A stretch of 33,563 nucleotides of DNA from Fibrobacterota bacterium (lineage in GTDB: Bacteria > Fibrobacterota > Fibrobacteria > UBA11236): contig JAEKLQ010000087.1 of assembly GCA_019509785.1 (NCBI GenBank), positions 1-33,563 of the forward strand, written 5' to 3'. The notes under the pieces are model-generated. The model did not search any database, had not been told where the DNA came from, and saw nothing but the letters and a program-made list of their open reading frames with translations. Made by a program: the position numbers and the translations under genes. Every line of letters starts with the position of its first letter. Positions within the stretch are counted from its first letter, which is position 1. This document shows positions 2,066 through 20,876 of this stretch, one piece after another.

Positions 2066-3190
2066 TCACGCTTTTTGGGGTTGCGTGGGCCGTAGCGCGG
2101 CCACGAGCGCGCCGGATTCGGCCAGCGCGAGGATCAGGAAAGGCACGGGGAGCGTGAAGTACGTGATATCGAAACCGGATTCGTAAAAGGCGGTATGCCA
2201 TCCTTGGATGATCGCGGCCCGCAGGAAGCAGGCGGTGATGAGGGAAAAGATCAACAGTCCGGCGTTGCGGAACCGGCGGTCGCCGGCAGGATCGGAATAG
2301 CCGAGGTAGAGAGCCCATCCGGCCACGGGGAGGAAGAAAGTCATCGGGGCGTACCCCGCCTGCACCAGGAATGGATTATGGATCCGGAAGGCTTCCGCAT
2401 CCCATAGATAGAAGGGGATAAAGGTGGCGGCCGCTATCAAGCCGGCGATAAGCCCGAAGAGGAAGACCCGGGGGAATCCTTGCGAGCGGATCAAGGATCC
2501 CGCGCGCAGCAGGAAAGGCACGGCCGTGATTCCCCGGGTAGCCAGAAGCGCGCCCCAAAAGCAGGCTTCCCTGACGAATCGTCCGGTCGATCGATCCTCC
2601 CTGGGCCGGTCCGATGCGTACATGCACCAAGCGGCCACCGTCATGTTCGCGAACAGATCGCTTCTCGCGAGCACCTCGTAATGGAATCCGGGCTGGGAGA
2701 GAAGCAGGAGGACCGCGAGGGTCGCGGCCTCCGGTCCGCCACCTACCTTCCGGGACAAGACCGCGAAAGCGGCCAGGGCCGCGAATTGCATCCATCCCAC
2801 GTCCCCCAGGAAGTAGAAAGGCAAGGCCAATGCGAAGAGCATCGGGAAGCCGCTGATCATATGTCCGAGATGGCTGAGCTTGCCGTACGGGTATTCCCCT
2901 CGCGGTATCGCCCCGATGAAATTCCCCAGCGCGCTCCAACGGTCCACTTGCAGGGTCTGCGGATCGACGCGCAGGAAAGCGGGAATGGCCGCCAGGAAAT
3001 AGGCCCCGATCCAGATCAAGGGACGTCGGAAAAACCGTCGCGGCATTTTGCCGGCCAGCCACGCCATCGCCAAGCAACCAAGAAAATAGGCAGTAACGGG
3101 AAGCAGAGGCGCCGTCCCGAAATGGGAGGCGTATTTCCAGGCGAAAAGGCCGCCAGCGGTCGCGAGGCCGGCCAGGCAAACAAGATTCAT
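2066..3190 (-). CDS. Polytopic membrane protein, possibly a GT-C-type glycosyltransferase
   Basis: Unrecognised integral membrane protein of about 374 residues when started at the ATG at 3190 (MNLVCLAGLATAGG). An in-frame ORF extends to 3316, but its extra 42 residues are polar and do not look like a signal. About nine or ten hydrophobic segments are spread over the whole length, ending with a Pro/Gln/Lys tail. The first large loop carries charged and aromatic residues (RVDPQTLQVDRWSALGNF, GEYPYGKLSHLGHM). This layout, an acidic residue in the first loop followed by many helices, recalls polyprenyl-phosphate-dependent GT-C glycosyltransferases, but I see no decisive motif. It lies upstream of rel on the same strand, although rel seems to have its own promoter between them. 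The role is unknown; the gene itself is well supported by its consistent hydrophobic pattern. Confidence 0.75.
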   Translation of the reverse strand: MNLVCLAGLATAGGLFAWKYASHFGTAPLLPVTAYFLGCLAMAWLAGKMPRRFFRRPLIWIGAYFLAAIPAFLRVDPQTLQVDRWSALGNFIGAIPRGEYPYGKLSHLGHMISGFPMLFALALPFYFLGDVGWMQFAALAAFAVLSRKVGGGPEAATLAVLLLLSQPGFHYEVLARSDLFANMTVAAWCMYASDRPREDRSTGRFVREACFWGALLATRGITAVPFLLRAGSLIRSQGFPRVFLFGLIAGLIAAATFIPFYLWDAEAFRIHNPFLVQAGYAPMTFFLPVAGWALYLGYSDPAGDRRFRNAGLLIFSLITACFLRAAIIQGWHTAFYESGFDITYFTLPVPFLILALAESGALVAALRPTQPQKA

Positions 3191-18192: not shown

Positions 18193-19071
18193 TCAGACCT
18201 GGCTTTGCGCCCGCCCCTGCCGCTCCCCCGGCGACGCCAGCCACGGCAGCGGCGGCGCCTTCACGCCCGCGTATTTCTTGCGGTAGGCGCTGGGCGACAT
18301 GGCCATCTGGGCCTTGAATTGGCGATTGAAGTGCGACAGATCGTAAAAGCCGTTATTGAGGGCGATGTCCGAGATGCGCTCGCTGCCTTCGGCCAAGGCC
18401 TGGCAGGCCGCGTGGATGCGGACCATGGTGATGTACTTGAGCGGGGAGATCTTGAAAAGCGATTTGAAGCGCCGTTCGAATTGGCTGATGGAAAGGCAAA
18501 CGATGGAGGCCAGCTTGGCCATGTCGATGGATTCGGGATAATGCTGCATCACGTATTCGAAGACTTCGCCCATCTCGGTGAAATGGCGCGAGCCCGATTC
18601 CATCTTCTTGATGTCGCGCGTGATGCCCGCCAGCCCGATGATAGTGCCGTCCTCGTGCCGTACCGGGATCTTGGTGGTGGAGTACCAGTCCGTCGCCTTG
18701 CCGGTATGGATCACCAGCTCGATGATGTTCACCAACGAATCGCCGTTCTGCATGACCTGATGATCGTCGCGCAGGTATTTTTCGGCCAGGTGGCGCGGGA
18801 ACACGTCCAAATCGGTAAGCCCCACCACGTCTTCCGGCTTCTTGAAACCGCACTTCTCGGCGAAGATGCGGTTGGCCATGGTGAAGCGGCCGTTCAGATC
18901 CTTCGCGAACAGGAAAACGTCCGCCAAATGCTCGAAGAGCTCGAGCAAGGCTGATTTTACCCCGGGCTCGTCGGAGTTCCAGGCCCCCGCTTGCTTCAAT
19001 TTCCCTCCCGGCTTACCGACACGCCATCGAACAAATACCGCCCAGGCGCAGTCCGCGCAAGATATAAACAT
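18193..19071 (-). CDS. PAS-domain AraC-family transcriptional regulator
   Basis: One-component regulator. A PAS domain lies at about residues 38-145 (DVFLFAKDLNGRFTMANRIFA, then IPVRHEDGTIIGLAGITRDI, the usual PAS/PAC ending). It is followed by an AraC-type double helix-turn-helix at about 165-272 (LASIVCLSISQFERRFKSLF; ISDIALNNGFYDLSHFNRQFK; MSPSAYRKKY). The ligand is unknown. I see no cysteine or histidine pattern that would fix a haem or flavin. The longest frame starts at ATG 19071, but TTG at 18999 is preceded by GGGAGGG at good spacing and would remove 24 residues of unclear nature. The neighbouring minus-strand unknown gene begins just downstream and could be its target; that is only proximity. 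Confidence 0.88.
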   Translation of the reverse strand: MFISCADCAWAVFVRWRVGKPGGKLKQAGAWNSDEPGVKSALLELFEHLADVFLFAKDLNGRFTMANRIFAEKCGFKKPEDVVGLTDLDVFPRHLAEKYLRDDHQVMQNGDSLVNIIELVIHTGKATDWYSTTKIPVRHEDGTIIGLAGITRDIKKMESGSRHFTEMGEVFEYVMQHYPESIDMAKLASIVCLSISQFERRFKSLFKISPLKYITMVRIHAACQALAEGSERISDIALNNGFYDLSHFNRQFKAQMAMSPSAYRKKYAGVKAPPLPWLASPGERQGRAQSQV

Positions 19072-19244: not shown

Positions 19245-19676
19245 ATGAAAACCGTTACGGTGAATCCGAAGTCCGTTGCCAAGAAGTGGTACATCATCGA
19301 CGCCACGGACATTGTTCTGGGCCGCCTGTCCACTAAAGCCGCCTCCATCCTCATGGGGAAGCACAAGGCCTCGTGGGCCCCGAATGAAGACATGGGCGAC
19401 TTCGTCGTCGTCGTCAACGCGGACAAGATCGCGTTGACCGGTAAAAAGCGCGAGACCATGCGCTATTTCAACCACTCCACCCATCCGGGCGGACATCGCA
19501 CTTTGACCGTGGCCCAGGCCCAGGCCATCCGCCCCGGCTATCCGGTCCGTTATGCCATCAAGGCCATGTTGCCCAAGACCATCCTGGGCGATCACATGGG
19601 CCGCAAGCTTTTCGTTTACGGTGGCGAAAGCCATCCCCACGCGGCCCAAAAGCCCGAGGCGCTGGCTGTCAAGTAA
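19245..19676 (+). CDS. rplM: 50S ribosomal protein L13 (uL13)
   Basis: Large-subunit assembly protein, 143 residues, the usual length. Typical L13 blocks are WYIIDATDIVLGRLSTKAAS, GDFVVVVNADKIALTGKK, AMLPKTILGDHMGRKLFVY and HPHAAQKPEAL. The ATG at 19245 follows ATAGGG. It is the first gene of the operon and is followed by rpsI, the almost universal bacterial pairing. Confidence 0.98.
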   Translation: MKTVTVNPKSVAKKWYIIDATDIVLGRLSTKAASILMGKHKASWAPNEDMGDFVVVVNADKIALTGKKRETMRYFNHSTHPGGHRTLTVAQAQAIRPGYPVRYAIKAMLPKTILGDHMGRKLFVYGGESHPHAAQKPEALAVK

Positions 19677-19693: not shown

Positions 19694-19710
19694 AGGAGGA
19701 TACCCCCATC
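19694..19710 (+). promoter_or_regulatory. Shine-Dalgarno and apparent ATC start codon of rpsI
   Basis: AGGAGG (19694-19699) is followed after 8 nt by ATC (19708-19710), which begins ATC-GCA-ACC-CAG. This is exactly where the start codon of S9 should be. No ATG, GTG or TTG lies in frame between the Shine-Dalgarno and the conserved ATGRRKTAIAR block. The nearest upstream ATG (19552) is deep inside rplM. Confidence 0.75.
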
Positions 19711-20103
19711 GCAACCCAGGATTCAATTCGAGCCACCGGACGCCGCAAGACCGCCATCGCGCGGGTGATCATCAAGCCCGGCACCGGCAAGCGCATCATC
19801 AATGATCGCACTTTCACCGAGTTCTTCGCCAACGCCATCCGCGAGATGATCGTTGAGCAGCCCCTCACCATCCTCAACCTGAACAAGCAGTGGGACGTCA
19901 TCGTCACCTCCAAGGGTGGCGGCGTGAACGGGACCGCCGGAGCCGTCCGGCTCGGCATCGCCCGCGCCCTGGTGGCGTTCAAGCCCGAGTATCGCGCCGC
20001 CATGCGCGAGCACGGCCTCATGACGCGCGACTCGCGCGCCGTGGAACGTAAGAAGTACGGAAAGTCTGGAGCCCGCCGCAGCTTCCAGTTCTCCAAGCGC
20101 TAA
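19708..20103 (+). CDS. rpsI: 30S ribosomal protein S9 (uS9), apparent ATC start
   Basis: Small-subunit protein whose C-terminal Lys/Arg tail reaches the P-site tRNA. From the ATC at 19708 it has 131 residues, the normal length. Conserved blocks are ATGRRKTAIARVIIKPGTGK, GGGVNGTAGAVRLGIARAL and the tail DSRAVERKKYGKSGARRSFQ followed by FSKR. If the start is really ATC, initiation is non-canonical. A miscalled ATG is the simpler explanation. An automatic caller would probably choose ATG 19552 and wrongly add 52 residues that overlap rplM. It lies 31 nt after rplM and 26 nt before rpsB, in a purine-only spacer. Confidence 0.93.
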   Translation: MATQDSIRATGRRKTAIARVIIKPGTGKRIINDRTFTEFFANAIREMIVEQPLTILNLNKQWDVIVTSKGGGVNGTAGAVRLGIARALVAFKPEYRAAMREHGLMTRDSRAVERKKYGKSGARRSFQFSKR

Positions 20104-20129: not shown

Positions 20130-20876
20130 ATGCCTGTACCCGAAATCAAAGAGATGTTGGAGGCGGGTGTCCATTTCGGGCACTTGACCAAGCGCTGGAA
20201 CCCCAAGATGAAGAAATTCATCTTGACCGAGAAAAACGGGATCTACGTCATCGATCTGGCCAAGACCCAGGAATGCCTGAACAAGGCCATCGAAGCCGTC
20301 AAGCGCATCCGGCACTCCGGCAAGTCCATCCTCTTCGTCGGCACGAAGAAGACCATCAAGGACTGCATGAAGGAAGAAGCCGTCCGCTGCAACATGTACT
20401 ACGTGACCGAGCGCTGGCTGGGCGGCATGTTGACCAACTTCTCCACCGTCAAGAAGTCGATCAAGCGTTTGGAAGATATCGAGAAGATGGAAACCGACGG
20501 CCTGTTCAACGAGCTGACCAAGAAGGAAGTGCTCGCCCTGAACAAGGAACGCGGCAAGCTCGAAGGCATCTTCTCCGGTATCCGGAACATGAAGTCCCTG
20601 CCGGGCGCGCTGTTCGTGGTCGATTCCGAGCATGAGGAAATCGCCGTTCACGAAGCCAACCGCCTCAAGATCCCGGTCATCGCCATCGTGGATACCAATT
20701 CCGATCCGGACAAGGTCGCCTTCCCGATCCCTGGCAACGACGACGCCATCAAGTCCGTGGGCCTTTTGACCCGCGTCATTTCCGATGCCATCGTGGGCAT
20801 CCAGGCTCCCATCGCCGAAGACGGCAAGACCACCGCCGCCCCCGCCCTGGCCGAGGTGCTGGAAGGGGCCGAGTAA
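20130..20876 (+). CDS. rpsB: 30S ribosomal protein S2 (uS2)
   Basis: 248 residues. Signature blocks are MLEAGVHFGHLTKRWNPKMK near the N-terminus, SILFVGTKKTIKD, RWLGGMLTNFSTVKKSIKRL, GALFVVDSEHEEIAVHEANR and PVIAIVDTNSDPDKVAFPIP. Only a run of GA-rich bases precedes the ATG, so the Shine-Dalgarno is weak. The stop TAA shares one base with the tsf ATG (TAATG), so translation is coupled, as in the conserved rpsB-tsf pair. Confidence 0.98.
   Translation: MPVPEIKEMLEAGVHFGHLTKRWNPKMKKFILTEKNGIYVIDLAKTQECLNKAIEAVKRIRHSGKSILFVGTKKTIKDCMKEEAVRCNMYYVTERWLGGMLTNFSTVKKSIKRLEDIEKMETDGLFNELTKKEVLALNKERGKLEGIFSGIRNMKSLPGALFVVDSEHEEIAVHEANRLKIPVIAIVDTNSDPDKVAFPIPGNDDAIKSVGLLTRVISDAIVGIQAPIAEDGKTTAAPALAEVLEGAE

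Follow-up and report, generated by a model that had tools for sequence, protein, structure and literature searches.

An apparent ATC start codon on the ribosomal protein S9 gene of a Fibrobacterota bacterium, shared as ATC or ATT by most genomes surveyed in its class

Can a gene for an essential ribosomal protein open at ATC, and what would such a start mean for the control of its synthesis? These questions are raised by rpsI, encoding ribosomal protein S9, in the window, i.e. the whole 33,563-nucleotide stretch of DNA that was analysed. As described in the initial annotation, the window sequence carries the Shine-Dalgarno (SD) motif AGGAGG, followed by the 8-nt spacer ATACCCCC and an ATC (Table 1). 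The codons after this ATC are GCA ACC CAG GAT TCA ATT CGA GCC ACC GGA CGC CGC AAG (IATQDSIRATGRRK...), and translation in frame, with ATC shown as I, gives the S9 N-terminus IATQDSIRATGRRKTAIARV. The product belongs to the S9 family, with a full-length match to Pfam PF00380 (positions 1-121; window 19738-20100; E 3e-44; 152.4 bits against a cut-off of 22.5), and its translation keeps the C-terminal SKR tail. The gene is single-copy, with no second S9 match anywhere in the 5.4-Mb genome, so that the assembly holds no S9 paralogue started by ATG. Directly upstream, rplM adjoins rpsI in the same direction, and an Rfam search near the pair returned no family above chance or threshold, so no RNA leader was seen there. 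Further upstream, an ORF on the minus strand (18193-19071) looks, from its translation, like a sensor domain with an AraC-type DNA-binding regulator.

Table 1 Features at and around the proposed rpsI start in the window.
Feature	Positions	Strand	Evidence
rplM, ribosomal protein L13, ATG start, moderate Shine-Dalgarno (taggg)	19245..19676	+	ORF, translation; crude start/SD scoring
AGGAGG, Shine-Dalgarno of rpsI	19694..19699	+	sequence; anti-SD duplex -10.3 kcal/mol
ATC, rpsI start codon	19708..19710	+	codon homologous in relatives: ATC/ATT in 6/6 genus genomes, ATG in some relatives
rpsI, ribosomal protein S9, 131 codons + stop	19708..20103	+	Pfam PF00380; translation
rpsB (S2), gene after rpsI, ATG start	20130..20876	+	ORF; SD scoring

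The identity of the start codon is settled largely by comparison with relatives. Each of the genus's five other genomes, all separate assemblies, has AGGAGG and then, at the homologous position, ATC (in four) or ATT (in one); some 5-10 codons before this codon the frame is closed by a stop, and no ATG, GTG or TTG lies in between. In three relatives the stop lies directly ahead of AGGAGG. A second family of the class likewise has ATC or ATT with an upstream in-frame stop, and within its largest genus most species read ATC GCT ACC GCA AAG where a minority read ATG GCT ACA GCA AAG, the codons aligning one to one, which makes the homologous position of the start clear. As this layout of motif, spacer and ATY (ATC or ATT) is conserved across independent assemblies, it is not a matter of chance, despite the 24 copies of AGGAGG on the two strands of the window. 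The annotation had further held that no ATG, GTG or TTG precedes the S9 core in frame, which is correct from the end of rplM to the core but not within rplM, where the frame contains an ATG (19552) and a GTG (19621), neither with an evident SD before it. That S9 begins at one of these codons, or arises by a frameshift from rplM, would agree with the window's frame being open as far as 19552, but is very improbable and was rejected, since the relatives have in-frame stops shortly ahead of the start codon and the N-terminal extension is not conserved. A G miscalled as C at a true ATG, the competing view in the annotation, found nothing in its favour and is excluded: the check that it had suggested, i.e. 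the same codon in related genomes, gave ATC or ATT in the five congeners, with no canonical start between this codon and the upstream stop, and in 58 genomes of the class in all, including ATT in the single-contig genome G025. Hence, the start differs from ATG, GTG and TTG, is conserved beyond one genome and has no usable canonical alternative in frame, the last point being read from the congeners' stops, given that in the window itself the frame runs back to 19552 without a stop. Backed by the ATC and ATT codons of its relatives, the proposed start of the window's rpsI at ATC is almost certainly right.

Across the phylum, an S9 search of 168 genomes gave 119 readable rpsI starts. In the window's class, 58 of 86 genomes have ATC or ATT (ATC 52, ATT 6, ATG 28), counts for which three rows of genera g11 and g14 with long N-terminal extensions were corrected by hand to ATG and one contig-edge row to ATC. 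Outside the class, the phylum has TTG (32) or GTG (1) and never ATG, and alphaproteobacterial S9 loci, taken as an outside comparison, gave ATG 72 times and GTG five times, with one locus lacking a clear start and two not found. Since some members of the class have an ATG rpsI, the ATC/ATT codon is dispensable. The S9 protein tree, whose deep order is weakly supported, requires rpsI to have switched between ATY, ATG and TTG five times or more. The mean anti-SD duplex energy of rpsI is about -9.2 kcal/mol for ATC/ATT (calculated prior to the hand correction), -8.5 kcal/mol for TTG and -6.1 kcal/mol for ATG, i.e. weak starts go with strong ribosome binding sites. In some genomes of genus g4, and only there, the rpsI SD can be drawn within a small hairpin, GGAGGAUACCUC, which was discarded as a general feature.

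Related genomes were compared in pairs over about 150 conserved genes, the reading frame being picked by third-position substitutions. In this survey, which used crude scoring and took in a few percent of the genomes, rpsI was the sole credible ATY start. The gene flagged was rpsI of G019 and not that of the window, probably because the latter's frame is open upstream. Other ATY flags raised automatically, for the most part due to shadow frames or to alignments extending into the neighbouring upstream gene, were rejected on re-scoring, and no sign of a general relaxation of start choice was found among these genes. In nine genomes of the class, the S10/spc/alpha ribosomal protein genes, among those listed and projectable, start with ATG and in a few cases with GTG or TTG. 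We note weak yet canonical starts on several 30S genes of the S10/spc cluster: in the window's genus (L251, L252), TTG for rpsC and GTG for rpsM; in the sister genus (L253, L254), GTG for rpsC and, apparently, TTG for rpsE.

The translation apparatus appears ordinary where it was inspected. The anticodon stem-loop of the initiator tRNA, GGGCTCATAACCC, with anticodon CAU, was found in seven of seven genomes examined and ARAGORN detected a Met CAT tRNA in two genomes of the class, and a special initiator tRNA was rejected on this basis. The 16S 3' end, matched in one of five genomes searched, a member of the class, carries ACCTCCTT with a normal anti-SD core. In a single-contig genome of the class (L351), the 16S 3' end near 3015 reads GGATTACCTCCTTT in place of the usual GGATCACCTCCTTT. 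The 13-mer GGGCTCATCATCC occurs more than 20 times in G025 (G025:C1), pointing to a dispersed repeat.

An infC start of ATT, ATC or ATA behind a strong SD is the classic arrangement for autoregulation of IF3. Outside the window's class, infC has one of these codons after a GGAGG-type SD in 22 of 22 genomes; inside it, the start is TTG in 42 of 44 genomes, the window's included, with GTG and ATG once each (one further genome gave no call). At the infC loci (e.g. L142, L293-L318) the classic autoregulation codon is lost in the whole class. The IF3-discriminated codon is therefore reciprocally placed, on infC in the sister classes and on rpsI in the window's class, a contrast that, in phylogenetic terms, amounts to little more than one event. 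Genus g5 and two g2 species, basal branches in the S9 tree, combine infC TTG with rpsI ATG, which suggests that infC changed to TTG first and rpsI to ATY later, the tree being too weak for proof. In the C-domain of IF3, family f3 (e.g. L120-L141) has asparagine for the arginine of the C-terminal EGR motif, which we take to be R168 in E. coli numbering, and in genus g11 the end of IF3 is strongly altered. The EGR change was discarded as the cause of the ATC codon, the arginine being kept in the window's family.

Based on these comparisons, we propose that S9 output may be set at recognition of an AUC start on rpsI, and in an IF3-sensitive manner, a statement that taken as a whole stands at about even chances. 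The gene would be translated from AUC with the ordinary initiator tRNA, presumably inserting fMet despite the third-position mismatch. The strong AGGAGG would keep the 30S subunit on the mRNA and the poor start codon would limit commitment; because start and SD strengths compensate, start-codon recognition would be the step at which S9 output is set. IF3 discriminates against starts without a third-position G, a group to which AUC and AUU belong and UUG does not (PMC4611024), so S9 synthesis should depend on IF3 activity and, in the window's class, would move inversely with that activity on 30S subunits. The reciprocal infC/rpsI pattern adds some support to this plausible link, and IF3 control of S9 may reasonably be inferred. 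What we infer from the sequences is that initiation takes place at AUC in vivo, that it is sensitive to IF3 and that this sensitivity is put to physiological use. Since infC starts with TTG in the window's genome, the putative rpsI circuit would not be the infC one. Nor is the loop predicted for it a negative feedback: a rise in IF3 relative to 30S would reduce S9 and, with it, the 30S subunits themselves; simple negative feedback fits rpsI and IF3 poorly. A further step, that IF3-sensitive start control was transferred from infC to rpsI, coupling S9 and so 30S assembly to IF3, we advance tentatively, as something that may well not be so.

Alternatively, the AUC start may be real and have no regulatory meaning, a strong SD and a weak start drifting together so as to tune expression and match S9 to L13. 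Any weak start would then serve, and the contrast with infC would be a coincidence. The inverse relation of SD and start codon strength in rpsI, the TTG start with a strong SD in the sister classes, the repeated ATY/ATG changes on the S9 tree and the adjacent, co-directional S9 and L13 genes all agree with such tuning. Moreover, as the sister-class UUG is weak but not IF3-discriminated, the property shared more widely is weakness and not IF3 sensitivity. Against tuning, other ribosomal protein genes here were not found with ATY although they too would need tuning, and a non-canonical infC is absent throughout the very class in which rpsI adopted ATY. Given the lack of an obvious negative feedback and the UUG of the sister classes, we consider plain tuning nearly as likely as control by IF3. 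Autogenous control, in which the SKR tail of S9 contacts the P-site tRNA and a shortage of S9 in 30S subunits alters initiation on AUC, is improbable. The tail is retained in the window's S9 and the uS9 tail influences start-codon use in yeast, but the yeast tail mutants initiate worse, on UUG more than on AUG, which is the wrong sign for derepression (PMC6344880). With initiation reduced on both codons in these mutants, we disfavour feedback by way of the S9 tail. Deletion of the E. coli S9 tail, in work by Arora from 2013, reportedly likewise lowers UUG, GUG and CUG.

Compared to known systems, the proposed IF3-sensitive AUC start most resembles that of infC (AUU, AUC or AUA), which is present in the phylum outside the class and shares an IF3-discriminated non-canonical codon, a strong SD and conservation. 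It differs in that the gene encodes S9 and not IF3, that infC itself has TTG in the class, and that no simple negative feedback is expected from the loop. A gene other than infC under such control is sigR of Streptomyces, with an IF3-repressed GTC start, likewise in an operon and with a non-canonical start conserved in its lineage; there, however, the codon is GTC, the gene is non-ribosomal and repression by IF3 is demonstrated, whereas for rpsI it is a prediction (PMC5472188). In S. aureus, extended SDs accompany AUU and AUA starts, as in cvfC1 (AUU) and ccpN, which share the pairing of a weak start and an extended SD with rpsI but encode regulatory-type proteins, whereas S9 is a ribosomal protein needed in large amounts (PMC13009471). 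Such codons give about 10% of AUG output there, in poor medium (PMC13009471), a level that would be odd for so abundant a protein as S9. The E. coli rplM-rpsI operon, subject to autorepression by L13, has the same gene pair and order as the window; its rpsI differs in starting with ATG and in being controlled through the rplM leader (PMC10931766).

In conclusion, a literature search of open-licence papers found none on a non-AUG start of rpsI. To our knowledge, few non-canonical starts have been documented in bacteria (infC, pcnB, sigR, cvfC1 and ccpN), and the rpsI ATC is a new conserved member of this very small set, with an unexpected reciprocal relation to infC. It is also a reminder that true starts can be missed by gene callers. 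The idea that codons of this kind serve low expression only is challenged by one that is conserved on a ribosomal protein both essential and abundant. Together with it, the reciprocal change in infC offers a natural experiment in which to ask why infC is autoregulated at all and what takes the place of that control. If the tentative transfer of control from infC to rpsI is true, the class has lost the infC circuit and would tie S9, hence 30S assembly, to IF3 activity instead.
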